DNA from: Segatella copri
GTDB lineage: Bacteria > Bacteroidota > Bacteroidia > Bacteroidales > Bacteroidaceae
Reading direction: 5' to 3'
DNA length: 64,000 nt
Assembly (NCBI RefSeq): GCF_019249795.2
Contig: NZ_CP156891.1
Coordinates: 2,392,501 to 2,456,500 of the forward strand
Shown: in pieces, positions 48,412 through 64,000 of the stretch
Layout: the number at the start of each line of letters is the position of its first letter
Numbering within the stretch: the first letter of the stretch is position 1
Translations under genes and position numbers: made by a program
The notes under the pieces: generated by a model
What the model was told of the DNA's origin: nothing
Databases searched by the model: none
What the model saw: only the letters and a program-made list of their open reading frames with translations

Positions 48412-48422
48412 TTGGATGTAAT

Positions 48423-49160: not shown

Positions 49161-49198
49161 AAAAGGAAAAAAGTAAAAAAGAAAAAAATACCAAGACA

Positions 49199-49690
49199 AT
49201 GAAATATTTGAAAAAACTCTTCACCCTCCTGGTGATTGCTTTGTTTGCCTGCGGCTTTGCAGCCTGCAGCAGCGATGATGAGGAACCGGAGGAGCGTTCT
49301 CTGGAAGTTACACCTGCCAATCTTCATGGCACATGGGAGTTGGCTGAGTGGAATGGTGAACCTCTTGCTGAGGGCACATACTGCTACATCGTTTTCAACC
49401 GCAAGGACCAGACTTTCGAGATGTATCAGAAGTTTGACAGTATGTATGGTCGCCATATCACCGGTTCGTTCGCTATCGAGAACGATCCATACCAGGGTTA
49501 CATCATCAGCGGAAGCTATGATAACGGTAAGGGCGACTGGAACCAGAGTTATCTCGTAACCCGTCTCCTGGCATCGGGTTCCATGATATGGACCGCCAAG
49601 GACGATGTTACCGACATCAGCCGCTACAAGCGTTGCGATGAGGTACCTGCCGAGATACTCAAGGAATGTAAAGATCTCACTGAAGAATAA
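49199..49690 (+). CDS. Lipocalin-like lipoprotein
   Basis: A 163-residue lipoprotein with signal ending GFAAC, then SSDDEEPEE (acidic surface-export-type start). LHGTWELAEWNGEPLAEGTYCYIVFNRKDQTFEMYQKFDS has the G-x-W start and strand pattern of the Bacteroidetes lipocalin-like/DUF5004 group. It could bind a small hydrophobic ligand or only serve as a structural accessory. Last gene of the second SusCD operon, followed by a strong terminator. Confidence 0.75.
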   Translation: MKYLKKLFTLLVIALFACGFAACSSDDEEPEERSLEVTPANLHGTWELAEWNGEPLAEGTYCYIVFNRKDQTFEMYQKFDSMYGRHITGSFAIENDPYQGYIISGSYDNGKGDWNQSYLVTRLLASGSMIWTAKDDVTDISRYKRCDEVPAEILKECKDLTEE

Positions 49691-49740
49691 AAAAAAGAGC
49701 GAATTATCTGCAAATTCTGCGGATTATTCGCTCTTTTTTT
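49690..49740 (+). terminator. Terminator of the second SusCD operon
   Basis: AAAAAAAGAGCGAATTATC pairs, with one mismatch, with GATTATTCGCTCTTTTTTT around a 13-nt loop. The symmetric A and T runs allow it to work in either direction. Confidence 0.9.
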
Positions 49741-49741
49741 G

Positions 49742-49749
49742 TATCTTTG
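49742..49749 (+). promoter_or_regulatory. -7 element of the ThiD-AraC gene
   Basis: TATCTTTG followed by C, 36 bp before the ATG at 49786 and immediately after the upstream terminator. The -33 region falls inside the terminator stem and has no clear TTG. Confidence 0.5.
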
Positions 49750-49785
49750 CCCTCAAACTTATCATCGGGTTCAAAGTTTAAGGAT

Positions 49786-50739
49786 ATGATATTAACGATT
49801 ACAGGTTCAGACAGCACCGGAGGCTCTGGTGTGCAGGCGGACATCAGGACGATTGCCGAGTTGGGCGGTTATGCTGTTTCGGCAATAACCAGCATCACTG
49901 TGCAGAATACGCTCGGTATTCAGGAGTTCTTCGATATTCCTGCCGAGATTGTTTCGGGGCAGATTGAGGCTATCATGAACGATATGCAGCCTGATATTGT
50001 GAAGATTGGTATGATACGCAGGGTGGAAACGCTGAATGTGGTCATCGATGCGCTGACCAAATACCGTCCTGCCCATATCATCTATGCCCCTGCCATCTGG
50101 TCGAGCCAGGGCGATGCGCTGATGACGGAAGATGTGGTGAGCCAGATCAAATACCGTCTGCTGCCGCTCTGTTCTGTCGTCGTGGCACGCAAGAAGGAGA
50201 GCGACATCATTCTTCAGAACTCCAAACTGCTGAGCCTTGCCGAGAAGCAGGGACTCCGGATCTATCGCCTCGACAATGCCAATTCGCATGGTCTCATCAA
50301 CCGTTTTTCTTCAGCTCTTGCCGTTTATCTGAATCAGGGCAAGAAGATGGGGGAGGCACTGGCGAAGGCGCAGGATTTCATCAATGTAGAACTCGTGCGC
50401 CAGAGCAATCTGCAGGGCAGGAGTTCCGAGCTTTACAACCAGTTTATCTCGCAGGTCAATAACTTCTGCCGCACCTATAGCGATGTTCATTTTTATGCCG
50501 ACCAGTTGAATGTGAGTGGCCGTTATCTGGCTCAGGTTACCCGCCGCATCTCCGGCAAGACGCCGAAGGCGATTATCGATGAATACATCGTGAAGGAGAT
50601 AGAGCGCGAACTCTCTACCACCACGCATACGGTGCAGGAGATAGCCAACACTTTCGGCTTCTCATCCCAGGCTCATCTCACCAAGTTCTTCAAGAAGATG
50701 AGAGGGGTAACGCCTTCTGCTTTCAGACAGAAAGGTTGA
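49786..50739 (+). CDS. ThiD-like (HMP/pyridoxal kinase fold) domain fused to AraC DNA-binding domain
   Basis: A 317-residue cytoplasmic protein, started at ATG 49786 (a TTG 39 bp upstream lies inside the promoter). Residues 1 to about 210 have the ribokinase-like ThiD fold: GSDSTGGSGVQADIRTIAELGGYAVSAITSITVQN and VKIGMIRRVETL. The conserved HGTGC segment of ThiD, which includes the anion hole and catalytic residue, reads SHGLINRFSSALAVYL. Kinase activity is therefore probably lost while the pyrimidine or pyridoxine pocket could remain. Residues about 225-317 are an AraC HTH (VQEIANTFGFSSQAHLTKFFKKMRGVTPSAFR). The design suggests a transcription factor that senses a thiamin precursor or B6 vitamer. 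Single-gene unit. Confidence 0.88.
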   Translation: MILTITGSDSTGGSGVQADIRTIAELGGYAVSAITSITVQNTLGIQEFFDIPAEIVSGQIEAIMNDMQPDIVKIGMIRRVETLNVVIDALTKYRPAHIIYAPAIWSSQGDALMTEDVVSQIKYRLLPLCSVVVARKKESDIILQNSKLLSLAEKQGLRIYRLDNANSHGLINRFSSALAVYLNQGKKMGEALAKAQDFINVELVRQSNLQGRSSELYNQFISQVNNFCRTYSDVHFYADQLNVSGRYLAQVTRRISGKTPKAIIDEYIVKEIERELSTTTHTVQEIANTFGFSSQAHLTKFFKKMRGVTPSAFRQKG

Positions 50740-50788
50740 AAACAGGTGGCTTTTGACCAAAAGATTAAAATAATTAAGTTAAATTAGA

Positions 50789-50826
50789 AACACGGACAAA
50801 TTGAATTTGTCCGTGTTGTTTTTTTC
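50789..50826 (+). terminator. Terminator after the ThiD-AraC gene
   Basis: AACACGGACAAATT (50789-50802) and AATTTGTCCGTGTT (50804-50817) form a long stem with a TTGAA loop, followed by T tract. It may also end the convergent response-regulator transcript. Confidence 0.88.
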
Positions 50827-50884
50827 TTTGCTTTTTAACTCTATGTTTTCCACCACGGAACTCATAGACTTAGGAACCATAAAA

Positions 50885-51565
50885 CTAGTCATCCATCCAC
50901 ATCTTGAATCCTTCGCCGCGCAATGTTTCCAGGTGGATGGAGGCATCCTTGGCGAAATATCGTCGCAAGTTGTACATCACATTATTCAGACTTTCTTCGC
51001 TACAGTGTACACCTCTCCAAACTGTATCCTTGAGGTCTTGGCGTGGCACGACTTCGCCCTTATTGATCCATAATAGCTTGAGTGTAGCAAACTCGGTATT
51101 GCCCAGCGTCTTCTCGCTGCAGCCACGGAAGCTGAGCACATGGCTCTCTGTATCTACGGTGTAGGCACCCATGTTTATCATACGGGAATTGCTGAAGTCT
51201 TTAGGCTTGGCATAGCGGTTTACCCATCCCAGGAACTCACGGCTGTCGAAAGGCTTCTCGATGTAAATCATAGCACCATTATTGGCAGCCTCGGTTTTGA
51301 GTTCTGGATCATGTAACGAAGATACACACATGATAGGGATATCTTCTGCGGCAAGACGGATGTCGTTGATTCTTTCCAGACTGTTCTCTTCTCCTATCAT
51401 CACATCGAGGATGATGAGGTTGGGAGACAGCTTCATGATAAGGCTTTCTACTCCAAACAGCGTGTTTTGAAAATAGACCTCATAGCCTGCTTTTTTAAGT
51501 AGCAAGACTGCTGTGTTGCCGAAATCCAGGTCATCATCGACCAATAGTACTTTTATCTTTTCCAT
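50885..51565 (-). CDS. OmpR-family response regulator
   Basis: A 226-residue protein. Receiver domain (1-120): acidic pocket VLLVDDDLD, phospho-acceptor Asp in LIILDVMIGEEN (about residue 54), Ser in CVSS and Lys in YIEKPF. C-terminal winged-helix DNA-binding domain (about 130-226), SEKTLGNTEFATLKLLWINKGEVVPRQDLKDTVW.. NVMYNLRRYF. It resembles RprY-type regulators of Bacteroidetes. It is 46 bp downstream of its sensor kinase and the pair diverges from the double-glycine peptide operon, which is the likely target (inference). Confidence 0.9.
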   Translation of the reverse strand: MEKIKVLLVDDDLDFGNTAVLLLKKAGYEVYFQNTLFGVESLIMKLSPNLIILDVMIGEENSLERINDIRLAAEDIPIMCVSSLHDPELKTEAANNGAMIYIEKPFDSREFLGWVNRYAKPKDFSNSRMINMGAYTVDTESHVLSFRGCSEKTLGNTEFATLKLLWINKGEVVPRQDLKDTVWRGVHCSEESLNNVMYNLRRYFAKDASIHLETLRGEGFKMWMDD

Positions 51566-51611
51566 ATTTCTTATTTTATAATGTTTTATCTTGTTCCTTG
51601 CCCATTACGAT

Positions 51612-52991
51612 TTATTGCTTTTCGTTGAGCGGCAATGTAAATGTAAAGGTGCTGCCCTTGCCGAGTTCGCTCACCACCTTGATGGTTCCGCCATGTGCCT
51701 TGACGGCATATTTTACCATAGCAAGGCCTATGCCATATCCGCTCTTATGGTGTGTGGCTGGTATGCGATAGAACTGCTCGAATATCTTCTTCTGATATTT
51801 TTTGTCGATGCCTACGCCGTGGTCAGACACGCTGATGATGGTGAAATGTTCATCCTGTTTGATGTTGACTTCAACATTTGCCTCCTTGTCTGAATATTTA
51901 ACGGCATTCTCCATCAGATTGTGCATCACATTTTCTATCAGATACTTATCTGCATACACCAGTGCATTCTCTTCACGATGGTCGTGGATGCCGATGGCAT
52001 GTGGTTTGCTGGCATAGTTGATATCTATTTGTTCTTGTGCTTGTTTCGTCAGCTCGATGATGTCAATTTGTTCTTTGTTGATAACCAACTTGCTTTCACT
52101 AGCCTTAGAGGTAATCAGTATCGTCTTGATGGTATTGGCAAGATTCTTGATTTGTCTTTCAGAAGAATCAATCATCTCTTGCAAGTCAGCATCCTTGATA
52201 CTGTCTTTGATGAATCCCAACTTTAGCAAGATGCTTGCCAATGGTGCTTTCAAGTCGTGTACAGTTCCATGAAGGCTTACCTCACGATTCCTCAGAAGGT
52301 CTTCCTTGTATCTGATGGCAGTCATCTGGTATCCTACGCAGAAGACGATGATAAGAGCTAGCAGTATGGTAGAGATTAGAGTCTCTATAGAATTTCTGAT
52401 GAAAGAAGATGGAGTTATATCCACCTTTGCCTGTACGAAACGGATAGGTTTGAGTCCGATGGCGATAGGCTTGCTAGCCTGCCAAGTCTCAATGTCCTTT
52501 GTTTGCCCATAACTCTTAATGACCTTTTTGTTCTCATCTAATATCAATAAGGTATAAGAGAAATCCTCATTTAGATTCTTCTTGAATATTTGAGAGAGTT
52601 TCTTGAGATTAATGGGATTGCCTTTGGCGGTGAGCCTGTCTTTTGTCAATAATCCCATAGCTTCTGCTTCTGTTTCTACAATACCTTTGTCTCTTAATTC
52701 TTGAATGTTTATCTCGTTAATATTGATGATATCTTCCTTTTTAGGTTTAGCTTTCAGAAAGTCTTCTTCGGACATATCTTTATAGTAAAGTCGTTGTTTT
52801 CCATCTTTATACTGGGTGTAATTTTGATATGCTCGGATAGCATATTCTTCATCAACGGTAACTTTTAGTTCAGAATTTATCTTATCTGTTTCGTTGAAGA
52901 TATAATTTTTGTGTTGCAGGGAAATGTTATATCCTTGCAACAATGTGATAATCATAATTGCTAAAATTGTTATATAATAATACTTTTTCAT
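51612..52991 (-). CDS. Sensor histidine kinase
   Basis: A 459-residue membrane kinase. TM1 (about 5-22), a periplasmic sensor of roughly 180 residues, TM2 (about 205-227), HisKA with phospho-acceptor His in SLHGTVHDLKAPLASIL (about 244), and HATPase with N box HNLMENAVKYS, G1 DHGVGID and G2 GYGIGLAMVKYAV. This is RprX-like architecture. The gene starts 205 bp from the first peptide gene on the other strand, so the pair probably forms a dedicated sensor for that system. The periplasmic domain has no recognised fold. Confidence 0.9.
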   Translation of the reverse strand: MKKYYYITILAIMIITLLQGYNISLQHKNYIFNETDKINSELKVTVDEEYAIRAYQNYTQYKDGKQRLYYKDMSEEDFLKAKPKKEDIININEINIQELRDKGIVETEAEAMGLLTKDRLTAKGNPINLKKLSQIFKKNLNEDFSYTLLILDENKKVIKSYGQTKDIETWQASKPIAIGLKPIRFVQAKVDITPSSFIRNSIETLISTILLALIIVFCVGYQMTAIRYKEDLLRNREVSLHGTVHDLKAPLASILLKLGFIKDSIKDADLQEMIDSSERQIKNLANTIKTILITSKASESKLVINKEQIDIIELTKQAQEQIDINYASKPHAIGIHDHREENALVYADKYLIENVMHNLMENAVKYSDKEANVEVNIKQDEHFTIISVSDHGVGIDKKYQKKIFEQFYRIPATHHKSGYGIGLAMVKYAVKAHGGTIKVVSELGKGSTFTFTLPLNEKQ

Positions 52992-53024
52992 GCGTTATAC
53001 TTTTGTAGTTACACTTTTAATATG

Positions 53025-53032
53025 CAAAGGTA
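53025..53032 (-). promoter_or_regulatory. -7 element of the sensor kinase operon
   Basis: The minus strand reads TACCTTTG here, 33 bp before the kinase start. No clear TTG at the usual distance, which fits regulated or auto-activated transcription. A 12-G tract lies about 54 bp further upstream. Confidence 0.5.
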
Positions 53033-53085
53033 CGTTTTTTTTTCTAAAAGAGCGTACATTCTTACATCATTTTTATATCATAATC

Positions 53086-53097
53086 GGGGGGGGGGGG
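53086..53097 (+). repeat. Poly-G tract (12 G)
   Basis: Twelve consecutive G in otherwise AT-rich DNA between the divergent kinase and peptide promoters. Such tracts slip during replication and can switch nearby promoters on or off. The exact length could be affected by sequencing error. Confidence 0.85.
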
Positions 53098-53128
53098 TAA
53101 AAATGATGTGAAATTTGATGTAAAAAGT

Positions 53129-53159
53129 TTGGTGGTTTGAGCAATTTGAGATAATTTTG
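53129..53159 (+). promoter_or_regulatory. Promoter of the double-glycine peptide operon
   Basis: TTG at 53129-53131, 20 nt, TAATTTTG at 53152-53159, an exact Bacteroidetes promoter. It lies 31 bp downstream of the G tract and 37 bp before the first peptide start. Confidence 0.7.
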
Positions 53160-53196
53160 CAGCCAGAAAGTTTAATCAATTTAATTGGTATATAGT

Positions 53197-53328
53197 ATGG
53201 ATATATTGAAAAATTTAGATTTAAGCCAAGTTCTCGGCGGTGGATACTGGTGGCAAGATTCGGCAGGTTATTGGCATTATAATCCAAGTGACGAAGAACC
53301 TGATGGTGATGACATCATTTGGGAATAG
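53197..53328 (+). CDS. Double-glycine leader peptide A (Trp/Tyr-rich, acidic core)
   Basis: A 43-residue peptide, missed by length cut-offs. The N-terminus MDILKNLDLSQVLGG is a classic double-glycine leader (hydrophobics at -4, -7 and -12 relative to GG). Cleavage after Gly15 would leave a 28-residue core starting GYWWQDSAGYWHY and ending with an acidic DEEPDGDDIIWE stretch. The core has four Trp, no Cys, and a strong negative charge. It is the first gene after a perfect promoter and belongs to the operon carrying the matching C39 exporter. Function could be bacteriocin, signal, or structural peptide. Its leader differs from the other three peptides. Confidence 0.75.
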   Translation: MDILKNLDLSQVLGGGYWWQDSAGYWHYNPSDEEPDGDDIIWE

Positions 53329-53460
53329 TCATTAAAATAAGAAAAATAATAAAGTCGACGATATTATTTGCAGACCTCACTGTTCAAAGGCGTACCTTCT
53401 AAGAAGCACGATAGTCTTTCAAGATAGTTAACATGGTATAAACTCTTAATTTTAAAAATT

Positions 53461-53619
53461 ATGGAGAAAATGAATTTGTTTGAGATGCAAGCCATTGCTG
53501 GTGGTATCTCACGTGAGGAGTATTGCGCAGAGCTTGATGCAATTATGTCAGATAATTGGGGTAAGTTCACTAAAAGTGAAAAGAGAGCTGCTGCAAAATC
53601 ATTTGCGCAGAATTGCTAA
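53461..53619 (+). CDS. Double-glycine leader peptide B
   Basis: A 52-residue peptide with leader MEKMNLFEMQAIAGG, then a 37-residue core ISREEYCAELDAIMSDNWG.. ending FAQNC. The core has two Cys, one near its start and one as the last residue, spaced to allow one disulfide. Peptides C and D share the identical 15-residue leader. Leader type corresponds to Bacteroidetes natural-product-precursor/GG-leader peptides cut by C39 peptidases, and such an exporter is encoded 6.4 kb downstream. The intergenic gap from peptide A is 132 bp with nothing recognised in it. Confidence 0.78.
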   Translation: MEKMNLFEMQAIAGGISREEYCAELDAIMSDNWGKFTKSEKRAAAKSFAQNC

Positions 53620-53636
53620 GTAAAAATCTATGTAAT

Positions 53637-53668
53637 AGTCTCAATATCTTTTAGGGGGTATTGAGGCT
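53637..53668 (+). other. Intercistronic hairpin after peptide B
   Basis: AGTCTCAATA pairs with TATTGAGGCT (one G-U) around a 12-nt loop, without a T tract. It probably stabilises the peptide message or reduces read-through into the GLPGLI gene. Confidence 0.55.
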
Positions 53669-53692
53669 GTTCATTGTAAAAATACGGTTATT

Positions 53693-54517
53693 ATGAGGAT
53701 TTTAATAAGTATATCGGTATTATTCTTTTATGCACTTTTGTTGCATGCTAAGAATGAGGTTATAGATCATGGGCAATTTTTGTGCTCATATTATTATTGT
53801 TATTCGAAAGATACGATAAAGAATGATGAGAAAGAAGAAGATTTGCTTTTTTTGGCTATCGGGAAAAATATCTCAAAATGCTACAGCTATTATACGTATC
53901 AGTCGGATTCTTTAAAATCTACAGTGGATGGCAAAGCAAAGTTTCGTGCATTGTTTAAAGAAGCGATTAAGCGAGAAGGGTATATGACCAATTCTTTTCC
54001 ACATAGCCGAATGACCACATGTATTTATAAAAAATATCCTCATGATAATATGATAACTGTGACCGATTGTCTCATGTCTCAATATTATGTATATGATGAT
54101 AGCTTAGGTATACAGAATTGGGGTATAGACGGAGATAGCATTAAAAATATTTTAGGCTACAACTGTCAGAAGGCAACTTGTAAATTCCGTGGTCGTTCTT
54201 GGACGGCATGGTTTGCATTGGATGTTCCAATTAGTGATGGTCCTTGGAAGTTTTGTGGTCTCCCTGGGTTGATAATGGAAGTATATGATGAAGGAAGACA
54301 GCAATATTTTTGTATAAAAGGATTACAGAAAGTAGCTGACACCCCTATTGTTTTTGATGTTTTCAATAGAAAGCGGATAAAAATAGATAGAAAATCTTTC
54401 CTAAAGTTAGAATATAATTACTTTCGTAATTCAAATAGCATAAATGAGGCGATGACAGGAATATTGCTGGACTCGTCAGACTCTCAACGTAATTATGACT
54501 TAATAGAAAGAGAATAG
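53693..54517 (+). CDS. GLPGLI-family protein 1
   Basis: A 274-residue secreted protein: signal peptide MRILISISVLFFYALLLHA, then a beta-rich domain with the family signature FCGLPGLIMEVYDEG near residue 190. Other family marks are KCYSYYTYQSDSL, CQKATCKFRGRSWTAWFALDVPISDGPWKF and a late NSINEAMTGILLD. Several Cys pairs (for example QKATC and FCGLPG) suggest disulfides. GLPGLI proteins have no established biochemical role; in Bacteroidetes they often sit beside TonB-dependent receptors and peptide-export genes. It lies between peptide genes B and C and shares about half its residues with GLPGLI protein 2. Confidence 0.88.
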   Translation: MRILISISVLFFYALLLHAKNEVIDHGQFLCSYYYCYSKDTIKNDEKEEDLLFLAIGKNISKCYSYYTYQSDSLKSTVDGKAKFRALFKEAIKREGYMTNSFPHSRMTTCIYKKYPHDNMITVTDCLMSQYYVYDDSLGIQNWGIDGDSIKNILGYNCQKATCKFRGRSWTAWFALDVPISDGPWKFCGLPGLIMEVYDEGRQQYFCIKGLQKVADTPIVFDVFNRKRIKIDRKSFLKLEYNYFRNSNSINEAMTGILLDSSDSQRNYDLIERE

Positions 54518-54543
54518 AATTTTATTTTTAAAAAGAAAAAGTT

Positions 54544-54705
54544 ATGGAGAAAATGAATTTGTTTGAGATGCAGGCTATTGCTGGTGGTATTAGCAAGAAT
54601 GATGAGGAATTATGTACAAAACTAAAAAAGTTGATATTGAATAGTGATATAGAGCAAGGGACTCTTGAAGCAGTTATTAATATATATAGAAAGAACTGTA
54701 TGTAA
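54544..54705 (+). CDS. Double-glycine leader peptide C
   Basis: A 53-residue peptide with leader MEKMNLFEMQAIAGG identical to B and D. The 38-residue core starts ISKNDEELCTKLKKLILNSD and ends YRKNCM. It has two Cys (positions 24 and 52 of the precursor) in the same relative places as in B and D and a central amphipathic helix-like stretch. It is 26 bp after the first GLPGLI gene. Confidence 0.78.
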   Translation: MEKMNLFEMQAIAGGISKNDEELCTKLKKLILNSDIEQGTLEAVINIYRKNCM

Positions 54706-54733
54706 TTAAAATATTTGAATTAATATAAAGGTT

Positions 54734-54889
54734 ATGGAGAAAATGAATTTGTTTGAGATGCAGGCTATTGCTGGTGGCATCTCACGTGAGGAGTATTGCG
54801 CTCAGCTCAAGAAGATGATGCGCGAGTGTGAAATGGATGACAAGAACTTTGATAATGCAGTTGAGGCTTATCATAGAAATTGTATGTAA
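54734..54889 (+). CDS. Double-glycine leader peptide D
   Basis: A 51-residue peptide, leader MEKMNLFEMQAIAGG, core starting ISREEYCAQLKKMMRECEMD and ending YHRNCM. The core has three Cys (precursor positions 22, 32, 50), the outer two matching those of B and C. Its first six core residues equal those of peptide B, so B and D are close paralogues. It is 28 bp after peptide C and 61 bp before the second GLPGLI gene. Confidence 0.78.
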   Translation: MEKMNLFEMQAIAGGISREEYCAQLKKMMRECEMDDKNFDNAVEAYHRNCM

Positions 54890-54898
54890 TGTCAAATG

Positions 54899-54934
54899 TT
54901 GCAGCCTATGCTTTATAGGGAGCATAGACTGCAA
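54899..54934 (+). other. Intercistronic hairpin after peptide D
   Basis: TTGCAG/CTGCAA and CTATGCT/AGCATAG form a stem of about 13 bp with a small internal mismatch and an 8-nt loop. No T tract follows. Its position, like the hairpin after peptide B, suggests differential expression of small peptides over downstream genes. Confidence 0.6.
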
Positions 54935-54950
54935 CCTATATTAAGGAATT

Positions 54951-55793
54951 ATGAAGAGAAAGAGTTTCATATTTCTATTTTTAACTTTTTATCTTATTGG
55001 CTTTGCCCAAAATAAGAAGATAGATACGGCTAATATGCTGTGTAGCTATGTTTATGAATATCTTACGGATACGCTGCCTGGAGAACAACTGCGTAAGGAA
55101 GACTTGCTCTATCTGCAAATCGGAGCTGAGTGCTCTAAATGCTATAGCTATTATACATATCAGTGTGATTCTTTAATGGCAGCTCCTAATGGTGATAAAC
55201 AATGGGATAGCTTCTTGACAGAAGCTGTTGGGAAAGGATTGAAAGGAAAGCAATTACACAATGCCATACCACACCGCCGAATGTCAGCAACCATCTACAA
55301 GAATTATCCGCAAGGAAAGATAACTGTTACCGACTTCTTGCTGGGACAATATTACCTTTATGAAGACGCTTTAAACTCACAGGAGTGGAATATAGAAAGT
55401 GACAGCATGAAAGTTGTTCTTGGACATGAATGTCAAAAGGCTACTTGTAGTTTCAGAGGAAGAAAATGGACAGCTTGGTTTGCCTTGGATGTTCCTGTAA
55501 GTGATGGACCTTTGAAATTCTGTGGTCTCCCTGGGTTAATCATGGAAGTATATGATAGAGGAAAGCAATACTACTTTTGTATTAATGGAATGCAACAGGT
55601 TAGTGCAACACCAATCACTTTTGGTATATTAGATAAAGATTTTAAACATTTTCAGAAAACAGATAGAAAAGACTTCTTGTTATCAAAGTATAGATATTTG
55701 AGGAATCAAAATAGTATAAATGAGGCTTCTACAGGTATCTCTCTAGGTAGCGTGGATGAAGCTCTAAAATATGATTTAATAGAAAGAGAATAA
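54951..55793 (+). CDS. GLPGLI-family protein 2
   Basis: A 280-residue secreted paralogue of GLPGLI protein 1. Signal peptide MKRKSFIFLFLTFYLIGFAQ. Shared blocks: CSKCYSYYTYQCDSL, TVTDFLLGQYYLYED, CQKATCSFRGRKWTAWFALDVPVSDGPLKFCGLPGLIMEVYDRG, and the end YDLIERE. The first copy has Ser where this one has Cys in YQCDSL. Duplication next to a set of peptides suggests each may pair with particular peptides as a binding, immunity or assembly factor (inference). It stops 10 bp before the VKOR-thioredoxin gene. Confidence 0.88.
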   Translation: MKRKSFIFLFLTFYLIGFAQNKKIDTANMLCSYVYEYLTDTLPGEQLRKEDLLYLQIGAECSKCYSYYTYQCDSLMAAPNGDKQWDSFLTEAVGKGLKGKQLHNAIPHRRMSATIYKNYPQGKITVTDFLLGQYYLYEDALNSQEWNIESDSMKVVLGHECQKATCSFRGRKWTAWFALDVPVSDGPLKFCGLPGLIMEVYDRGKQYYFCINGMQQVSATPITFGILDKDFKHFQKTDRKDFLLSKYRYLRNQNSINEASTGISLGSVDEALKYDLIERE

Positions 55794-55803
55794 GAGTTGC
55801 ATT

Positions 55804-57393
55804 ATGAGAAAAACGGATTTAACCTATTTGGTGGAAATTCTTTCTAAACATCTTAAGACTGCTTCTGTACATTTTCGTATGGAGGAGTTGCAATTATGTT
55901 TGTTGTCTTCTCCAATGGATATTACTGCACTATCCATCGTTCAGACTTATACTTGTTTGGGGGCTAAGGCTAGTGTTTTTCGGGCAGACTATGCCTCTAC
56001 TATAAAATGGGGGAAACCTTTCTTGGGACAATTGAGCCATGATGGTAAAGATTCGTTTGTCTTTGTGAAAGAAATAACAGAAACTGATGCTATTTATTAT
56101 GAGGGAAGGCTTAAGAGAGTAGTCTCTGCAAGTGATTTTAAGAAAGAATGGACGGGAATAGTTGTCGCTATTGAAAATATCAAAGAAAGAAATCAAGAAA
56201 AGGAACGACTTAAAACATTTATACACTCTTCTTTATTACTTTGTATAGTGGTATTGTTTTTAATCAGTCCACATTTGTCAACGTTGGCAAGTGTCAATTG
56301 TTTATTGGATGTGATGGGAGGCATACTCTGCTTTGGGGTAATAATGCAGTCTTCATCTCCTTACTATAATATTTTTGAACATTTTTGCATAGCCAATACT
56401 AGGCTTGACTGTCAGAAATTGGACTTGGGACGCTGGGGTGTGCTGTTTCGTAAGGTCAATTTGGGACGAATGGGGTTTATTTATTTCTTTTCTTGTACTT
56501 TGGCTACTGTGCTGGCAGTTAGTAGTCCTAATCCATCAGCAATATATGATTGGTTGGCAATAACCTCGATGGGACTATTGCTGTTAGCTGTCGTGTCAAT
56601 ATCATATCAACTATTTGCTAAACGTTTCTGTCTCTTATGTTTGGGGATAATGGGGATTCTTGTTGTTAATAGTATATTGGCTTTTCCTGTCAAAGGTATT
56701 CCGACTTCTTTCTCTCTAGATGTAGGATTGTATTTCCTTATGGTTGTCTTGGCTAGTAGTGGTCTTCTTTATATGTGTGAATATTATGCAGGTGCAAAGC
56801 AACGAGCTTTCTCAACGAGAATAAATGAACTGCGAATAAAACGAATGCAGAGTGTTTTGGGATATTCCTTTATGGCAAAAACAACGCTTCTGGCAAATGA
56901 AGATTCAATAATGCTTGGCGACTCAGAAGCACCATTGACTATTACGACTTATATGAGTCCTTGGTGTAAGACCTGTAAAAAGGTTGCCTTTGAAATGATA
57001 GAGTTGCTTCGTAAATATCCAGATTACATTAATTGGCAAATCTACTTTGATGGGGTGAAAGCCACTTTTGTTAATGAAGTAAATTTACCTCAACTCTATC
57101 TATATCAGTATTTGGCTAGTGGGGAGAACACGAATAGAAAACTTGCGGTTCTAAAATATTGGTATAAGAAGAAATCAATAAAAGATTTGCAGACAAAGAT
57201 TGAAATGACATCAAAAGACATAGAGGCAATCTTGGAAAGATTTAACAATCAGCTAGATGCCATGGCAGATGAAAGGCAGGTGCCTATAGTATGGATAAAC
57301 AACCGAATTTTTCCTTCTTGCTATTCTCTAGCCGATTTGCCTTATGTGTTACTCGACTTATGTATGATTTATTCTCAAGAAAAAAAAGTATGA
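55804..57393 (+). CDS. VKOR-thioredoxin fusion with N-terminal C39-like domain
   Basis: A 529-residue inner-membrane protein. Residues 1 to about 130 resemble a C39 peptidase-like fold (LSHDGKDSFVFVKEITETDAIYYEGRLKRVVSASDFKKEWTGIVV) but lack an active Cys at the expected N-terminal place. About 140-340 form a four-to-six helix VKOR domain with a loop Cys pair C195-x7-C203 (FCIANTRLDC) and the CxxC of RFCLLCLG (C276, C279). Residues about 375-525 are a thioredoxin-like domain with SPWCKTCKKV (C388, C391). Such proteins introduce disulfide bonds in the periplasm by passing electrons to quinone. The double-glycine peptides with paired Cys in the same operon are the obvious substrates. It ends with an ATGA overlap with the next gene. 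Confidence 0.9.
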   Translation: MRKTDLTYLVEILSKHLKTASVHFRMEELQLCLLSSPMDITALSIVQTYTCLGAKASVFRADYASTIKWGKPFLGQLSHDGKDSFVFVKEITETDAIYYEGRLKRVVSASDFKKEWTGIVVAIENIKERNQEKERLKTFIHSSLLLCIVVLFLISPHLSTLASVNCLLDVMGGILCFGVIMQSSSPYYNIFEHFCIANTRLDCQKLDLGRWGVLFRKVNLGRMGFIYFFSCTLATVLAVSSPNPSAIYDWLAITSMGLLLLAVVSISYQLFAKRFCLLCLGIMGILVVNSILAFPVKGIPTSFSLDVGLYFLMVVLASSGLLYMCEYYAGAKQRAFSTRINELRIKRMQSVLGYSFMAKTTLLANEDSIMLGDSEAPLTITTYMSPWCKTCKKVAFEMIELLRKYPDYINWQIYFDGVKATFVNEVNLPQLYLYQYLASGENTNRKLAVLKYWYKKKSIKDLQTKIEMTSKDIEAILERFNNQLDAMADERQVPIVWINNRIFPSCYSLADLPYVLLDLCMIYSQEKKV

Positions 57394-60026
57394 GACAGTT
57401 GATAGTATTAATATGTTTGATTTGTGCAAACACCTTAACTTATGCCCAGCAAGTTACTTTGTCGGGTAAAGTTGAGGATGCCTATACTGGTAAGGGATTG
57501 CAGGGAGTGATGGTTACTATCCGACCAAAGGGAGGTAATCGGATTTTGAAATTTTCCAAGACACAAGAGGATGGAAGTTATAAGATAAATCTTAATGCTA
57601 TGCCTGAAGGAAACAACGTGCTGCATTTCTCGATGATGGGATATGCTACGAAAGTTATCCCCTTATCAAAGGATACTATCCAGTATGATGTACTCCTGAC
57701 GGAGCAGGCAACAAAGCTGAAGGATGTTGTGGTGAAGGCTCCAAGTATCCGACAGCGGGGCGATACCATCTCCTACAATGTGGCAAGCTTTGCCGATGCC
57801 AACGACAAGAGTCTGGCTGATGTCTTGAAGAAGATGCCGGGAATGGAGGTGTCGGACAAGGGAGAAATCAAATATAACGGAAAGGCTATCAATAAGTTTT
57901 ATATCGAAGGACATGATATGCTCGGCGGCCGCTATTCCATCGCCACCAACAATATCCATCAGAAGGATGTCGGTTCGGTAGAGGTGATGACCAATCATCA
58001 ACCTATCAAGGCTTTGGAAGATATGTCGTTTTCGCAAGACCCTGCCATCAACATCAAACTGAAGGAATCTGCCAAGAGCCGTCTGGTAGGAACGTTGAAG
58101 GCAGGTGGCGGTATGGAGCAGAAGAAAGGGGAGAAGTTTGGTAAGCTGAATGTCTGGGAAGGCGAGATGTCGTTGATGCGCTTTGCCAAGAAAGCCCAGT
58201 CGCTCAATACCTTCAAGAGTAATAATATAGGTACGGATGTAACCGGTGAGGGCAATCTCCTTTTTTCTGATGATGGCACTGGAGTGATGGGAAATTCTTA
58301 TACTTTGAAGGATTACGTAAATGTTTCTCCCGACCAGCTGACGGATATTTCAGACAGCCGTGTGCGTAAGAACCAGACTCATGTTTTCACAATCAATAAT
58401 CTCTGGGTATTAGGCAAAAATACAGATTTGTCTTCTCAGATTGTCTATACCCACGACCGTCTTCTTTCTTCTTCATTCAGTAATACCCAGTATTTCCTGA
58501 ATGATTCAACCATTTATGATGTAGAGGATGAACAGGCTAAGCAGAAGCAGAACAGATTGGTTGCCGACTTTACGCTGACTTCGAATGGCGAAAAGGCGTA
58601 TGTTGCCAATCAGCTTTCCGCCGACCTGGCCTGGAATGATGTCATGATGGATATTGCCGGCTCTTATCCTAATCATCAGCAGGTCAATATGCCGAAATAT
58701 AAAGTATCAGACAAGCTGGAACTGTTGCATCGGAGTAGTAAGCGAACCTATACCTTCAACACGTATAATGCTTATATGGTGAATCCGCACTCTCTGTCTG
58801 TTGATAATTCGCAGCAAACGGCTTATCAAAGTGTTCGTTCGGCAGCATTCTTCAGTCATACCAATACTTCGCTCGGCTTTTTCCTCAAGCCTTTTACTGT
58901 GATGATGAAGGTTGGCTTGCAGGTATTGAGCAGAACGATGAAGAGTCATCTGGAGGGAGTACCCGATTCCCTGGGAAATATGCGCAATCAGATAGGCATG
59001 ACCTTCTTCCGTGCCTATGCATCGCCGGAGGCAGAGTATAATCAGGGTGGCTGGCATATCCGTTTCCAGATGCCCATCACCTTTACACCTTATTATTATA
59101 ATGATAAGTTGATGGGAGCGAAAGAGAATGCCAGCAAGACACTGGTTGCTCCTCAACTCAGCGTGAGCTATTTCCTTACAGCCCGTTTGCAGGCTACGCT
59201 TTCCGGTGGAATCGCTCAGCGGGAAGTGGATGAACAGAATTTCTATCAGGGTCTGCTGATGCGTGATTACCGTAATCTTTATACGGGTTTCGTGGATTAT
59301 ACCGCCGACAAGAGCAAGCATATTTCCTTCAACATCAGCTATAAGCGTCCTCTTGCCACCGTCTTTGCCAATGCCTACATCCGCAAGAGCTGGTCTGACA
59401 GTCATCTTACGGTGGCTCGTAATTTTGTGGGTGATTATATCATCAACTCCTATTTCTCCAACAGCAGCAGTTCTGAAAACCTGATGGCTGGTGGAAAGGT
59501 AAGTAAGGGATTGGGATTCATGCATGGACTCGTTAGCGTAGGTTTTGATTATCTGAGGTTTGATGGTTTCCTGCGTCAGAACGATTCTCCTTCAGCCTAT
59601 TCATCTGATAACTATATGTTGTCGGCAAAATGGAGTGGTCGTCCTGTGGATTGGTTCAATTTCACCTATGAGCTGAACTGGGATAAGGATAAGATGGTAT
59701 TGAAGAATTTGGGTTTCGATTCTTCCTCTACCAATCTTGCCCAGAATCTCACTTTCAACTTCCAGCCATTGAAGTCATGGTTCATCAAGTTGCATGGAGA
59801 GCATTATCGCAATCAGATAGCAGATCATCAGCACAAGAATCTTACTCTTGCCGATGCGTCCACCAGTTATGGCTTTAAGAATGGTATGGAGTTGAGCCTG
59901 ACAGCGCTTAATCTTTTCAATCAGCGCACCTACGGTTATACTATTTATTCTGGGTTGACACGTACGGGCAAGGAGTATCAGTTGCGAGGTAGAACAATAT
60001 TAATGTCTATATTCTTTCATTTTTAG
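57390..60026 (+). CDS. TonB-dependent outer-membrane receptor-like beta-barrel protein
   Basis: An 878-residue outer-membrane protein. Signal peptide MRQLIVLICLICANTLTYAQ; CarboxypepD-reg-like domain (VTLSGKVEDAYTGKGLQGVMVTI, about 22-100); a plug-like segment (VVVKAPSIRQRGDTISYNVASF.. GMEVSDKGEIKYNGKAINKFYIEGHDMLGGRY); a long barrel ending ILMSIFFHF with terminal Phe. The plug is shorter than in SusC proteins and no SusD gene is present, so it is not a polysaccharide transporter. Its start (ATG 57390) overlaps the preceding stop by 4 bp, so it is translated with the VKOR protein, and it is 2 bp before the exporter gene. It may be the outer-membrane passage or receptor for the peptides. Confidence 0.88.
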   Translation: MRQLIVLICLICANTLTYAQQVTLSGKVEDAYTGKGLQGVMVTIRPKGGNRILKFSKTQEDGSYKINLNAMPEGNNVLHFSMMGYATKVIPLSKDTIQYDVLLTEQATKLKDVVVKAPSIRQRGDTISYNVASFADANDKSLADVLKKMPGMEVSDKGEIKYNGKAINKFYIEGHDMLGGRYSIATNNIHQKDVGSVEVMTNHQPIKALEDMSFSQDPAINIKLKESAKSRLVGTLKAGGGMEQKKGEKFGKLNVWEGEMSLMRFAKKAQSLNTFKSNNIGTDVTGEGNLLFSDDGTGVMGNSYTLKDYVNVSPDQLTDISDSRVRKNQTHVFTINNLWVLGKNTDLSSQIVYTHDRLLSSSFSNTQYFLNDSTIYDVEDEQAKQKQNRLVADFTLTSNGEKAYVANQLSADLAWNDVMMDIAGSYPNHQQVNMPKYKVSDKLELLHRSSKRTYTFNTYNAYMVNPHSLSVDNSQQTAYQSVRSAAFFSHTNTSLGFFLKPFTVMMKVGLQVLSRTMKSHLEGVPDSLGNMRNQIGMTFFRAYASPEAEYNQGGWHIRFQMPITFTPYYYNDKLMGAKENASKTLVAPQLSVSYFLTARLQATLSGGIAQREVDEQNFYQGLLMRDYRNLYTGFVDYTADKSKHISFNISYKRPLATVFANAYIRKSWSDSHLTVARNFVGDYIINSYFSNSSSSENLMAGGKVSKGLGFMHGLVSVGFDYLRFDGFLRQNDSPSAYSSDNYMLSAKWSGRPVDWFNFTYELNWDKDKMVLKNLGFDSSSTNLAQNLTFNFQPLKSWFIKLHGEHYRNQIADHQHKNLTLADASTSYGFKNGMELSLTALNLFNQRTYGYTIYSGLTRTGKEYQLRGRTILMSIFFHF

Positions 60027-60028
60027 TA

Positions 60029-62230
60029 ATGGCACATATAAAGATAGAACATCAGTATGACAGCATGCAATGCGGTATCACCTGCTTGCAGATGATTTGT
60101 AGATATTTCGGCAGGGAGTACTCGTTGAACTCTCTGTCGAAGATTTGTTTTGCAACAACGGAAGGTGTTTCCATGCTGGGCATCAACGAGGCTGCAAGAA
60201 TATTGGGATTCCAAACGGTTTCGGCTAGGGCTACAATAGAGGAACTGAGCGAGACTCCACTACCTTGCATCCTTCATTGGAACCAAAACCATTTTGTGGT
60301 ATTATATAAGGTGAAAAAGGGCAAGAAGTTCTATATCGCAGACCCTGGCAAGGGTAAGACAACTTATAATCTTGAAGAATTCAGACGGCATTGGATAAGC
60401 ACTCGCTCTAATGACGAGGACAAGGGTATCGCCATGTTCTTCGAGACCACTCCTGCCTTCTTCACCTATCAGATAGAAGGAGAAGATAGACAGAAGGAGA
60501 AGCGTTCCTTCAAGTTCCTTTTCAGATATTTCAAGAAATACCGCAAGGCATTCTCCTGGATTGTCTCGGGACTGCTTGCGGGCAGCGCCCTGCAGCTGGT
60601 GTTGCCGTTCCTTACCCAATCCATCGTGGATGTCGGTATCAAGAACCAAGACATTGGATTCATCTGGCTCATACTCTTAGGTCAGTTGATGCTCACCGTC
60701 AGCCGAACTGCGATAGACTTCGCTCGCCGATGGTTCCTGCTCCGCATCTCCATGCGGATCAACATCTCCCTGGTGAGCGATTTCTTCATCAAACTGCTGA
60801 AACTGCCGATGTCGTTCTTCGACACCAAACTGATGGGCGACTTGATGCAGAGGATGAACGATCATAGCCGTGTGAACAACTTCCTCACCCAGCAGACGCT
60901 CAACATCACCTTTGCCATGCTTACCTTCGTGGTATTTTCGGTGGTGCTCTTTATATATAATAAGGTGGTGTTTGCCATCTTCTTGCTTGGCAGCATACTG
61001 TATGGCGGATGGATGGCTCTCTTCCTGCGTCGAAGAAAGGTGCTCGATTATGAACTCTTCGAGCAGCAGGCCATCAATAACAACAGGACATACGAGTTCA
61101 TCACTTCGATGCAGGAAATCAAGTTGCAGGATTGTGAGCAGCGCAAGCGAAAGGAGTGGGAGGAAACTCAGGTGAATCTTTTCAGAGTGCAGCAGAAATC
61201 TCTAAAACTACAGCAGACCCAGGAGGCAGGAAGTATTTTTATCAATGAGGTGAAGAATATCGTTGTGACGGTGGTTGCTGCAACGGCGGTAATCCAAGGG
61301 CACATGACCTTGGGTATGATGCTCGCCGTGCAATATATCATCGGACAGCTCAACTCGCCGGTGGAGCAACTCATGAACTTCTTCTATTCCGTTCAGGATG
61401 TGAAAATCAGTCTGGAACGAATCAATGAGATTCACCAGATGGATGATGAGAACGGGAAGGATGGCTTGCTGACTGATCTTGATCATCCTGAGGATGGTAT
61501 CCATATCAGCAACATCATGTTCAAGTATGATCCTCATGCCCTCAGAAAGACGATAGACGGGGTGGATATTCATATTCCTCAAGGTAAGGTGACGGCGATA
61601 GTGGGAGCATCGGGCAGTGGAAAGACCACGCTCATCAGATTGATGCTGGGGTACTACCCGGTGTTGGAAGGAAAAATCACCATCGGCGATACCGATATCA
61701 ATCAGCTCAACAGGAAATGGTGGCGCCGACAGTGTGGAGTTGTGATGCAGGAGGGCGTCATCTTCTCGGAAAGCATCGGGCGCAACATAGCAGTGGATGA
61801 TGCAGAGATAGATCAGGAACGTTTGATGAGAGCTGCAGAGATAGCTTGCATCAAGGATTATGTGATGGTCTTGCCGCTGAAGTTCAACACCAAGATTGGG
61901 CGTGATGGCGTGGGACTGAGCCAGGGCCAGAAACAGCGCATCCTGATAGCGAGAGCTGTTTATAAGAACCCAGACTATATCTTCCTGGACGAGGCAACCA
62001 ACTCGCTTGATGCCAACAATGAGCGTAATATTGTGGAAAACCTGGATAAGTTCTATCAAGGTAAGACAGTTGTGATAGTTGCTCATCGCCTAAGCACGGT
62101 GAAGAATGCCGACCAAATCGTGGTCCTTGACCAGGGAAAGGTGGTTGAGGTTGGCAACCATGAATCTTTAACCGCCAAGCGAGGGGCATATTATAATCTT
62201 GTGAAGAATCAGTTGGAATTGGGAAACTAA
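60029..62230 (+). CDS. Peptidase-containing ABC exporter (C39, double-glycine peptides)
   Basis: A 733-residue PCAT. N-terminal C39 peptidase (about 1-140) with catalytic Cys15 in QCGITCLQM, His88 in NHFVVL and Asp105 in ADPGKG. Six membrane helices (about 165-450). ATPase domain with Walker A VGASGSGKTTL (about 525), signature LSQGQKQRI (about 630), Walker B YIFLDEATNSLD (about 650) and the H-loop VAHRLS. Such proteins cut leader peptides after Gly-Gly and export the core using ATP. The four GG-leader peptides at the start of the operon are its probable cargo. No HlyD-type adaptor or TolC gene is present in this operon, so the outer-membrane route is open. Confidence 0.95.
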   Translation: MAHIKIEHQYDSMQCGITCLQMICRYFGREYSLNSLSKICFATTEGVSMLGINEAARILGFQTVSARATIEELSETPLPCILHWNQNHFVVLYKVKKGKKFYIADPGKGKTTYNLEEFRRHWISTRSNDEDKGIAMFFETTPAFFTYQIEGEDRQKEKRSFKFLFRYFKKYRKAFSWIVSGLLAGSALQLVLPFLTQSIVDVGIKNQDIGFIWLILLGQLMLTVSRTAIDFARRWFLLRISMRINISLVSDFFIKLLKLPMSFFDTKLMGDLMQRMNDHSRVNNFLTQQTLNITFAMLTFVVFSVVLFIYNKVVFAIFLLGSILYGGWMALFLRRRKVLDYELFEQQAINNNRTYEFITSMQEIKLQDCEQRKRKEWEETQVNLFRVQQKSLKLQQTQEAGSIFINEVKNIVVTVVAATAVIQGHMTLGMMLAVQYIIGQLNSPVEQLMNFFYSVQDVKISLERINEIHQMDDENGKDGLLTDLDHPEDGIHISNIMFKYDPHALRKTIDGVDIHIPQGKVTAIVGASGSGKTTLIRLMLGYYPVLEGKITIGDTDINQLNRKWWRRQCGVVMQEGVIFSESIGRNIAVDDAEIDQERLMRAAEIACIKDYVMVLPLKFNTKIGRDGVGLSQGQKQRILIARAVYKNPDYIFLDEATNSLDANNERNIVENLDKFYQGKTVVIVAHRLSTVKNADQIVVLDQGKVVEVGNHESLTAKRGAYYNLVKNQLELGN

Positions 62231-62716
62231 AATGCGTTTGAGATGGAATAAAAAGAATCAAATAATATAGAGTTGAAACTTCTTGATATTCTATCAATGT
62301 CCAATTTGGAGCGAGTTTTTTTGTTGACACATAGATAAATCTCTCTTGCAGAATCGCCAGCGATGCTGTAGAAAGGCTTCGCTGGCGATTTCTCTGTATA
62401 TAATCTTACTCAATCATGTTCTTGAGTATCCATTTCCTGAAGAATGGGTCTTCTATATTCCATAATCGAAATTTTTCGTTACGAAATTTTTCGCTAAGAT
62501 ACAAAAAATGTAGAAGTTCAGAAGGTGAACTCCTCTCGGTTTCTCTTAGCAGTACAATCTGTGTACTGCTTTATATATTCAGGAATATCTCTTATATATT
62601 TGCGAATCTCTCTTTATACAAAATGACTCAATGTTTGCAGAAAATGGAACATTTTTTTCTGTTTTCAGTGAAAAATGTTTCCTTTGCAGCCGTAATTGAA
62701 TAAAAATATAAGAATT
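62231..62716. other. Intergenic region between exporter and pdxS
   Basis: About 485 bases without a credible gene. It contains the hairpin at 62352-62390 and, at 62467-62492, the word CGAAATTTTTCG twice, 3 bases apart. AT-rich sequence with TTTCCTTTGCAG at about 62679 may hold the pdxS promoter. Confidence 0.6.
62352..62390 (+). terminator. Hairpin after the peptide-export operon
   Basis: AATCGCCAGCGA (62352-62363) pairs exactly with TCGCTGGCGATT (62379-62390). The tail is only partly T-rich (TCTCTGTATAT), so termination may be weak. Confidence 0.65.
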
Positions 62717-63592
62717 ATGGCAGAAAATAGACAAGAATTGAATCGCAACTTGGCTCAGATGCTCAAGGGTGGTGTGATTATGGACGTAACAACTCCAGAA
62801 CAGGCAAAAATCGCAGAGGCAGCAGGTGCATGCGCAGTAATGGCGCTGGAACGTATTCCAGCTGATATCCGTGCAGCAGGTGGTGTTTCTCGTATGAGCG
62901 ACCCTAAGATGATTAAGGGTATTCAGGAGGCTGTTTCTATCCCTGTAATGGCTAAGTGCCGCATCGGTCACTTCGCTGAGGCTCAGATTCTTCAGGCTAT
63001 CGAAATCGACTATATTGACGAGAGCGAGGTGCTCTCTCCAGCAGATAATGTTTATCACATCGACAAGACTCAGTTCGACGTGCCATTCGTTTGTGGTGCC
63101 AAGAATCTGGGCGAGGCGCTCCGCCGTATTGCTGAGGGTGCTACCATGATCCGTACCAAGGGTGAGCCAGGAACAGGTGATGTGGTTCAGGCTGTTACCC
63201 ACATGCGTATGATGCAGAGCGAAATCCGCCGCCTCGTTTCTATGAGCGAGGATGAACTTTACGAGGCAGCCAAGCAGTTGCAGGCTCCTTACGAGCTGGT
63301 GAAGTATGTTCACGAGAACGGCAAGTTGCCAGTGGTTAATTTCGCTGCCGGGGGTGTGGCTACTCCAGCTGATGCTGCCCTGATGATGCAGCTCGGTGCC
63401 GAGGGTGTATTCGTAGGTTCTGGAATCTTCAAGAGCGGTAACCCTGCTAAGCGTGCACAGGCTATCGTGAAGGCTGTTACCAACTACAACGATCCTAAGA
63501 TGCTGGCTGAGTTGAGCGAGGATCTCGGCGAGGCAATGGTAGGTATCAATGAGCAGGAGATTGCTTTGCTCATGGCTGAAAGAGGTAAGTAA
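62717..63592 (+). CDS. pdxS: Pyridoxal 5'-phosphate synthase, synthase subunit
   Basis: A 291-residue protein. The start at 62717 ([16 protein letters not shown]) fits the family; an in-frame start 21 bp upstream is less likely. PdxS makes PLP from ribose 5-phosphate, glyceraldehyde 3-phosphate and ammonia. The conserved [46 protein letters not shown], the active Lys in [14 protein letters not shown], and [11 protein letters not shown] are all present. It forms a dodecamer that receives ammonia from PdxT, which is encoded next. Confidence 0.97.
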
Positions 63593-63609
63593 TAAATGAG
63601 ATAACGGAT

Positions 63610-63640
63610 AAGAGCCCCTCCTGCACAAGAAGGGGCTTTT
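63610..63640 (+). terminator. Hairpin between pdxS and pdxT
   Basis: AGCCCCT (63613-63619) pairs with AGGGGCT (63631-63637) and is followed by TTT. With its short T run it may terminate part of the transcripts, giving more pdxS than pdxT. Confidence 0.6.
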
Positions 63641-63658
63641 ATATTAGATAAGTATGTT

Positions 63659-64000
63659 ATGAGAATAGCAGTATTAGCTTTACAAGGCGCTTTTGCTGAG
63701 CACAGACAGAAGTTGGCTCAGTTGGGCGTGGATAGTTTCGAGGTTCGCCAGTTGAAGGATTGGGACCAGCCAAAGGATGGCTTGATTATTCCGGGCGGTG
63801 AGAGTACCACCCAGGCGAAACTCTTGAATGAACTGGGATTGATGGAGCCTGTGAAGGAGGCGATTGCTGCCGGCTTGCCTGTTTATGGTACTTGTGCCGG
63901 CTTGATTCTTCTTGCCAAGAAGATTGAGGGCGAGCCTAGCCAGCGCATTGCTTCGATGGACATCACGGCTTTGAGAAATGCCTACGGTCGCCAGTTGGGC
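63659..64000 (+). CDS. pdxT: Pyridoxal 5'-phosphate synthase, glutaminase subunit (5' part)
   Basis: The first 114 codons, running off the window end. MRIAVLALQGAFAEHRQKLAQLG is the family start, IIPGGEST and YGTCAGLILLA (nucleophile Cys) are the class I amidotransferase landmarks, and SMDITALRNAYGRQL follows. The His and Glu of the triad are expected beyond the window. It releases ammonia from glutamine for PdxS and is 66 bp after it. Confidence 0.95.
   Translation, partial: MRIAVLALQGAFAEHRQKLAQLGVDSFEVRQLKDWDQPKDGLIIPGGESTTQAKLLNELGLMEPVKEAIAAGLPVYGTCAGLILLAKKIEGEPSQRIASMDITALRNAYGRQLG

Follow-up and report, generated by a model that had tools for sequence, protein, structure and literature searches.

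An accessory island of 11.8 kb lies at 50730–62568 of a 64,000-nucleotide stretch of Segatella copri DNA (contig NZ_CP156891.1, positions 2,392,501 to 2,456,500), here called the window. The island, delimited by DNA comparison with genome G001 (locus L205), holds a two-component system (TCS), four genes for peptides with a Gly-Gly (GG) leader, two GLPGLI genes, an oxidase gene, the gene for an outer-membrane beta-barrel protein and a C39 ABC exporter gene. A preliminary description of the same DNA had named these genes and their arrangement, and all are confirmed: relatives and the recurrence of the set elsewhere place them beyond chance, and the open frame of every named gene is intact. Its figure of 2–60 bp for the gaps between genes holds for only part of the first half, where intergenic gaps are 26–132 bp; further on, the oxidase and barrel genes share an ATGA overlap and barrel and exporter are 2 bp apart. 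Our analysis suggests that the island encodes a peptide weapon that is under regulation and comes with protection for its producer, and not a new secretion channel.

Three of the four peptides, A, B and C, make up the payload and are encoded on the forward strand. Peptide B (53461–53619; core ISREEYC...NC) and peptide C (54544–54705; recognized from its open reading frame (ORF), leader and relatives) have two Cys each. Peptide A (54734–54889) has three, the outer pair 28 apart. The 15-residue leader MEKMNLFEMQAIAGG is identical in all three; the cores, of 36–38 aa with two or three Cys, differ. A search with peptide A returned 41 proteins at E <= 0.001. Among them are the window's own product (P0032), proteins related to B and C, and numerous forms with truncations or frame shifts. 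Relatives of peptide B (P0031, P0033, P0036, P0047 and P0049–P0053) show a frame change in the second half of the core, which could be sequencing error or real variation. The spacing of the outer Cys residues is 26–32 residues in 10 of 10 two-Cys peptides compared, which were chosen by eye as two-Cys peptides, and the cores are otherwise diverse. Judged from their sequences, the payload peptides are one family defined by this spacing.

Payload genes are closely paired with GLPGLI genes. Nine complete payload genes could be viewed in context (three in the window and one each in loci L068, L069, L070, L071, L189 and L192), and eight have a GLPGLI gene directly 3′, across gaps of 14–92 bp. After the ninth, peptide C, come peptide A and then the second GLPGLI gene. 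At L191 of genome G151, a 326-aa frame (12685–13665) opens with a GG-leader-like, Cys-rich stretch and continues into a GLPGLI protein that has a signal peptide of its own; this joined frame sits within seven tandem GLPGLI-like genes (10827–17446).

The proposed peptide oxidase (55804–57393, forward strand), identified from domain matches, alignment and locus context, is a fusion of a C39-like domain lacking the catalytic Cys with VKOR and thioredoxin. The preliminary description rightly saw the VKOR and thioredoxin parts and left out the N-terminal domain. This domain scores 22.6 bits against Pfam PF03412 (cut-off 22), and its 130 residues resemble exporter C39 domains (profile comparison 97.1%, E 6e-11), with a match that begins downstream of the exporters' catalytic Cys. 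None of the eight aligned oxidase-type proteins has a Cys within its first 15 residues. The C39 catalytic His is replaced in the window oxidase, and His is found at that position in L068–L071. Invariant in 14 of 14 aligned proteins are the VKOR residues Cys 195, 203, 276 and 279 and the thioredoxin pair 388 and 391.

In 22 of 29 loci with a C39-VKOR fusion, a GG peptide carrying two or more Cys lies on the same strand no more than 4.5 kb away, and 19 of the 29 have a C39 exporter on the compared stretch; these 29 include partial fusions, and several stretches without peptide or exporter stop at contig edges. That the fusions so often adjoin Cys-bearing GG peptides suggests that the dead C39 domain docks the peptide leader. 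The oxidase profile matches 35 of 399 genomes of the family sample, some only through the exporter C39 part. The window oxidase itself has matches in 5 of 398 genus-sample genomes and in none of 60 drawn relatives.

The exporter (60029–62230, forward strand) contains a C39 peptidase domain (PF03412, 118.6 bits) together with PF00664 and PF00005, and its C39 residues C15, H88 and D105 are invariant in the exporter alignment. A search of plasmid DNA gave two short matches, both inside this gene. HlyD had been reported missing, and no intact gene does follow the exporter, but a decayed remnant remains there: 36 bp on the forward strand (62243–62278), with an early stop (ME*KESNNIELK). By eye, the remnant matches KESDNIELRSEK of an HlyD-like fragment at L140 (from 8004), which is itself interrupted by a stop; the DNA match with L140 reaches 62276. 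Short HlyD-like genes lie after the exporter in L009, L070, L192, L065 and L067, directly so in the first three (the locus set for comparisons includes three plasmid-collection records, L065–L067). Two longer HlyD-like copies lie elsewhere in G461, the genome of L140 (open frames of 162 and 171 aa), and short HlyD genes also occur in G449. The apparent absence of HlyD is, as read from these frames, gene decay. Because the gene is decayed here and longer copies persist elsewhere in G461, its function is probably supplied in trans.

Both GLPGLI proteins are encoded on the forward strand and score far above the TIGR01200 cut-off of 50 bits (protein 1, 53693–54517, 177.7 bits; protein 2, 54951–55793, 188.6 bits). 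The predicted model of protein 2 is a bowl, like the N-terminal domain of PNGase F-II. The barrel protein (57390–60026, forward strand) combines CarboxypepD_reg, plug-like and beta-barrel domains, as indicated by domain matches and a predicted model in which a plug and a large barrel resemble plugged TonB-dependent transporters.

The preliminary description had raised the possibility of an unusual outer-membrane route through this barrel. On this account, GLPGLI proteins and barrel would form a dedicated export path for the peptides, substituting for HlyD and TolC. The 2-bp spacing of barrel and exporter is in keeping with it, GLPGLI can be modeled as a LolA-type periplasmic bowl able to carry a peptide, and barrel plus exporter recur without GLPGLI beside the same kinase family (L066, L118, L119 and L121). 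However, GLPGLI and barrel genes are kept where the peptides are not. At L140 (G461) and L143 (G449), they persist at 83–98% protein identity in GLPGLI-GLPGLI-GLPGLI-barrel arrays. GLPGLI protein 1 is 83% identical in L140 and 85% in L143; the barrel is 95% identical in L140, and its L143 copy is split into two frames and 94% identical as DNA. None of the window's peptides lies between the GLPGLI and barrel genes of either locus (the L140 array gaps of 37, 31 and 47 bp are too small for a peptide gene), no oxidase was found on the compared stretches, and the exporter was not found on the 19.9-kb stretch of L143. Likewise, a barrel lies downstream in 33 of the 47 GLPGLI loci examined, and a convincing GG peptide upstream in only 3. 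The short HlyD genes beside the exporter in L009, L070 and L192 and elsewhere in G461 and G449, and the transporter-like barrel model, also argue against the export path, which we consider unlikely. Since L140 and L143 keep them without peptides or oxidase, GLPGLI and barrel are probably outside the export route, and the retained arrays look like orphan immunity or uptake genes.

Uptake would be central if the peptides were public goods: metal or nutrient carriers re-imported by the barrel, with GLPGLI as periplasmic binder and strains with orphan arrays as cheaters. The resemblance of the barrel model to TonB-dependent transporters, the modeled binding bowl of GLPGLI, and the peptide-free arrays agree with this idea, as does the breadth of GLPGLI, matched in 139 of 298 family genomes and above the cut-off in 131. 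By eye, though, the cores show no metal-binding pattern besides two or three Cys, which the oxidase would bond, and several distinct cores per operon would suit diversified weapons more than a single carrier. We regard public goods as improbable. At L142 of G449 (5576–15109), a radical-SAM-like GG-peptide cluster has a GLPGLI gene directly after the peptide gene and a barrel after the exporter.

Peptides, GLPGLI, oxidase, barrel and exporter recur together. L192 carries, in order, a peptide, two GLPGLI genes, oxidase, barrel, exporter and a short HlyD. L009 (Bacteroides sp. UBA1317) carries GLPGLI, oxidase, barrel, exporter and HlyD; just upstream, where the contig end cuts the peptide gene, a sequence matches the latter half of peptide B. 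In L069–L071 the order is oxidase, peptide, GLPGLI (two in L069), barrel and exporter. This recurrence and the invariant oxidase Cys residues uphold the earlier proposal of a single system in which GG-leader peptides are matured and exported with the help of their own oxidase. Identity to the window is very uneven in L071, at 97% for the exporter, 23% for the oxidase, 30% for the barrel and 32% for GLPGLI; it thus looks as if payload cassettes are swapped while the exporter and TCS stay conserved. The preliminary description had also looked to relatives that keep the exporter without the peptides, and L140 goes part of the way: on the pdxS side it has GLPGLI genes, a barrel and another ORF of barrel size, together with an exporter of 95% identity, whose companions are a radical-SAM gene and a GG peptide other than those of the window. 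We read this as cassette exchange around a shared exporter. Overall, the earlier interpretation is partly supported.

The island site itself varies between genomes. G001, the nearest genome compared, matches the window at 48127–50729 (97.2%) and from 62569 onward (97.6%) and lacks the island at the matching site. In its place is a single 423-aa ORF unlike the island genes (L205, 2833–4104), with an ATP-binding motif seen by eye; with this different ORF in the same position, the site may be an exchange hotspot. At L114 in G449, a regulator-kinase pair (90.5% DNA identity) is followed by a 690-aa ORF and then pdxS. As its gene order indicates, L114 is the same site with different cargo; in G449 and G461 the contig stops at the ThiD-like gene or close to it, and site continuity is visible on the pdxS side only. 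The exported-looking 690-aa ORF (7655–9727) was considered as a barrel and rejected, as it has no Pfam match and, at E <= 10, matches neither the window barrel nor any of six other barrels. In the window, the flanks, named by eye, are a ThiD-like/AraC fusion gene (49786–50739) and pdxS-pdxT (62717–64000). The fusion may be a vitamin B6 regulator of pdxST, now parted from its target by the island. GC content is 35% over 52–56 kb, compared with 45–51% over most of the window. An Rfam scan of 50500–62700 gave zero matches, and a Sigma-70 site scan found 26 sites against 27.3 expected, no excess.

The kinase and regulator diverge from the operon, with 205 bp between the kinase and the first peptide gene. 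The OmpR-type response regulator (50885–51565, reverse strand; PF00072, PF00486) is 98% identical in L114 and 73% in L071 and L115. The sensor histidine kinase (51612–52991, reverse strand) matches PF02518, with PF00512 just under the cut-off, and its N-terminal sensor region is a family of its own. A 259-aa kinase-core query was unselective (398 of 398 genomes), and the N-terminal 240 aa were used in its place; these matched 8 of 399 family genomes at E <= 1e-6, and G461 is not among the matches listed.

The first peptide gene of the operon differs from the payload genes. It encodes a 43-aa aromatic peptide (53197–53328, forward strand), consisting of the leader MDILKNLDLSQVLGG and a core beginning GYWWQ (GYWWQDSAGYWHYNPSDEEPDGDDIIWE), with zero Cys. 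A search with this YWW peptide returned nine related proteins (P0056–P0064), and a relative is also present in L071. At 7 of 15 kinase loci, the gene directly divergent from the kinase encodes an intact short aromatic GG peptide, and an eighth locus, L065, has a frame-shifted one. Chance levels were far lower (5 of 3000 shuffled regions; 1 of 28 control kinases). The one control match (L094, 3–787) comprises genuine-looking small GG-leader-like ORFs divergent from another kinase/regulator pair, so GG peptides beside kinases may extend past this family. The position of the peptide is taken by a barrel gene in L103, L115 and L118 and by the 690-aa ORF in L114; in L116, L117 and L122 neither a peptide nor an intact barrel is directly divergent from the kinase. 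The peptide-kinase link is above chance, not universal (closely related kinases of G449 have no such peptide), and it makes the YWW peptide a candidate pheromone. With the barrel first after the divergent promoter in L103, L115 and L118, the barrel alone may also be the receptor for the kinase signal.

The divergent control region (53064–53159) aligns with the upstream regions of relatives. It contains a kinase-side direct repeat with an 11-bp period (53064–53080), an operon-side direct repeat with a 12-bp period (53104–53121), and a promoter-like element conserved in the alignment, in which TTTG (53128–53131) is followed after 20 nt by TAATTTTG (53152–53159). All eight aligned upstream regions have half sites TTATGT/TGATGT 12 bp apart and then this element, and most have the mirrored repeat on the kinase side. 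TTTG-N20-TAATTTTG is the Bacteroidota promoter form; it occurs once in the window, where 0.01 occurrences are expected. The element precedes the YWW peptide (window and L071), the 690-aa ORF (L114), a barrel (L115), the GLPGLI array (L140) and a lipoprotein-like gene (L143 and L154). In L143 it is followed by a GLPGLI1-like fragment, a barrel, a GLPGLI-like gene and finally the array. Copies number 3 in G461, 4 in G449 (one weak) and 0 in G001, G025 and G017; these counts are lower bounds, as the scan missed the L114 copy that the alignment contains. Among these five genomes, the element is thus found in the two with the kinase and not in the three without a close kinase.

A control region common to kinase and peptides, and the same element ahead of barrel and GLPGLI genes elsewhere, would also be expected if the whole set served signaling, with all four peptides as pheromones and barrel and GLPGLI as receptors feeding the kinase. 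Yet the two-Cys peptide loci L068, L069, L070, L189 and L192 have no related kinase on the compared stretch, which argues that the payload is independent of this kinase, and we think it very unlikely that all the peptides are signals. Among the closest known systems is the three-component regulation of Gram-positive class II bacteriocins, in which a GG-leader peptide gene lies beside kinase and regulator genes and repeat boxes precede several operons. The island resembles this in its GG peptide gene adjoining kinase and regulator, an arrangement seen at 7 of 15 kinase loci and missing from L114 and L115, and in repeats before several operons. It differs in having an OmpR-type regulator, a Gram-negative host, a putative sensing step, and a kinase whose long N-terminal sensor region lies between two hydrophobic stretches.

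We give an even chance to the reading in which the island is exchanged horizontally and serves to make a regulated bacteriocin-like peptide, with oxidation, export, protection by GLPGLI and barrel, and control by the YWW peptide. The three payload peptides would fold as short helical hairpins, each closed by one disulfide. The dead C39 domain of the oxidase would grip the Gly-Gly leader while the VKOR-thioredoxin part forms the bond, and the exporter, as established for its family, would cleave behind Gly-Gly as the core crosses the inner membrane. Protection of the producer would fall to the TonB-type barrel and to the periplasmic GLPGLI proteins that are paired with the peptides: these would bind the peptide or else stand in for its outer-membrane target in a resistant form, and related strains would retain them as orphan arrays. 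The YWW peptide would leave through the same transporter and be sensed by the adjacent kinase, and the regulator would activate the peptide operon and scattered GLPGLI/barrel genes through the common promoter element. Support comes from the recurrence of the set, the Cys spacing, the invariant oxidase Cys, the orphan arrays, the shared element and the aromatic peptides at 7 of 15 kinase loci. There is also precedent in BSAP toxin genes, which adjoin genes for resistant replacements of their targets, as stated in the available part of PMC4999547.

Several observations weigh against this reading. Confidence in the GLPGLI model is modest (pLDDT 68), and GLPGLI-barrel pairs are common without a peptide, so the general job of the GLPGLI family may differ. 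An intact aromatic peptide is missing from 8 of the 15 kinase loci, among them L114 and L115, whose kinases are 90% and 76% identical to that of the window; the criteria for aromatic peptides were fixed after the peptides were known, and one of the 28 control kinases also passes them. Binding of the regulator to the control-region repeats is inferred: the regulator box of relatives is unmatched in the window at up to 3 mismatches, and the repeat differs at 4 of 22 positions, although the aligned control region is clearly homologous despite these differences. Finally, about 3.8 kb separates the L143 element from the array downstream of it, a distance that includes the barrel and another GLPGLI-like gene. 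A broader proposal is more doubtful and is offered tentatively: a Bacteroidales pheromone circuit in which a Cys-free aromatic GG peptide acts through the kinase on a hairpin-toxin cassette and scattered GLPGLI/TonB-barrel immunity genes, with GLPGLI proteins as periplasmic peptide-binding bowls and the dead C39 as a leader-docking module.

The combination of GG-leader peptide, oxidase and C39 exporter is a kind known from bacteroidetocins (PMC6671954), to which the island is likened by description. According to the available portion of that paper, these class IIf peptides have a 15-residue GG leader, a C39 ABC exporter and a thiol oxidoreductase, and are carried on accessory DNA in Bacteroidales hosts; bacteroidetocins A and B have a 42-aa core with four Cys, and the wider set admits at least two. 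The island shares the leader of about 15 residues, the C39 ABC exporter, the accessory location, the Bacteroidales host and, going by that description, an oxidoreductase gene (VKOR-thioredoxin). Unlike bacteroidetocins A and B, its cores have 36–38 aa and two or three Cys. The ORF list contains no unassigned operon-strand ORF between 53197 and 62230 that could be the five-transmembrane protein gene of bacteroidetocin clusters as characterized there. Relative to the same account, GLPGLI, barrel, TCS and YWW peptide are extra.

Two other systems share part of this layout. Bacteroidales peptide clusters with a radical SAM enzyme, an outer-membrane protein and a PCAT are reported in the available text of PMC10352776 and are represented here by L066, L120, L121 and L122. 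Like the island, they have a divergent TCS of the same kinase family, a barrel and C39 exporter (L066, L121) and a short aromatic GG peptide (L066, L120, L121); unlike it, they have a radical SAM gene in place of the oxidase and no GLPGLI annotated on the compared stretches. In Parabacteroides distasonis and relatives (L066, 5694–14196; L120; L121), this aromatic peptide ends in WYWIxD. BSAP toxins resemble the island in that a toxin gene adjoins a resistant outer-membrane barrel and one site holds different cargo; they are MACPF-domain proteins, and GLPGLI is unmentioned in the accessible part of the source (PMC4999547).

To judge from our searches, there is no earlier description of this peptide family, of the oxidase with a dead C39 domain, of GLPGLI/barrel partners that also occur as orphan arrays, or of a link between peptide and TCS. 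In the open-licence literature, we found no paper on GLPGLI proteins with such peptides and, among the matches listed, none on fusions of C39-like domains with VKOR or on pheromones with a GG leader in Bacteroidota. The accessory, modular system is real, and the functions assigned to its parts are inferred from sequence comparison. If they are correct, GLPGLI, a widespread family, would be periplasmic immunity bowls, and the dead C39 domain on the oxidase would be a leader-docking module. Small constructs would put three questions to the test: the function of GLPGLI proteins, the role of secreted peptides as density or competition signals in Bacteroidota, and the means by which an oxidase recognizes the right peptide.

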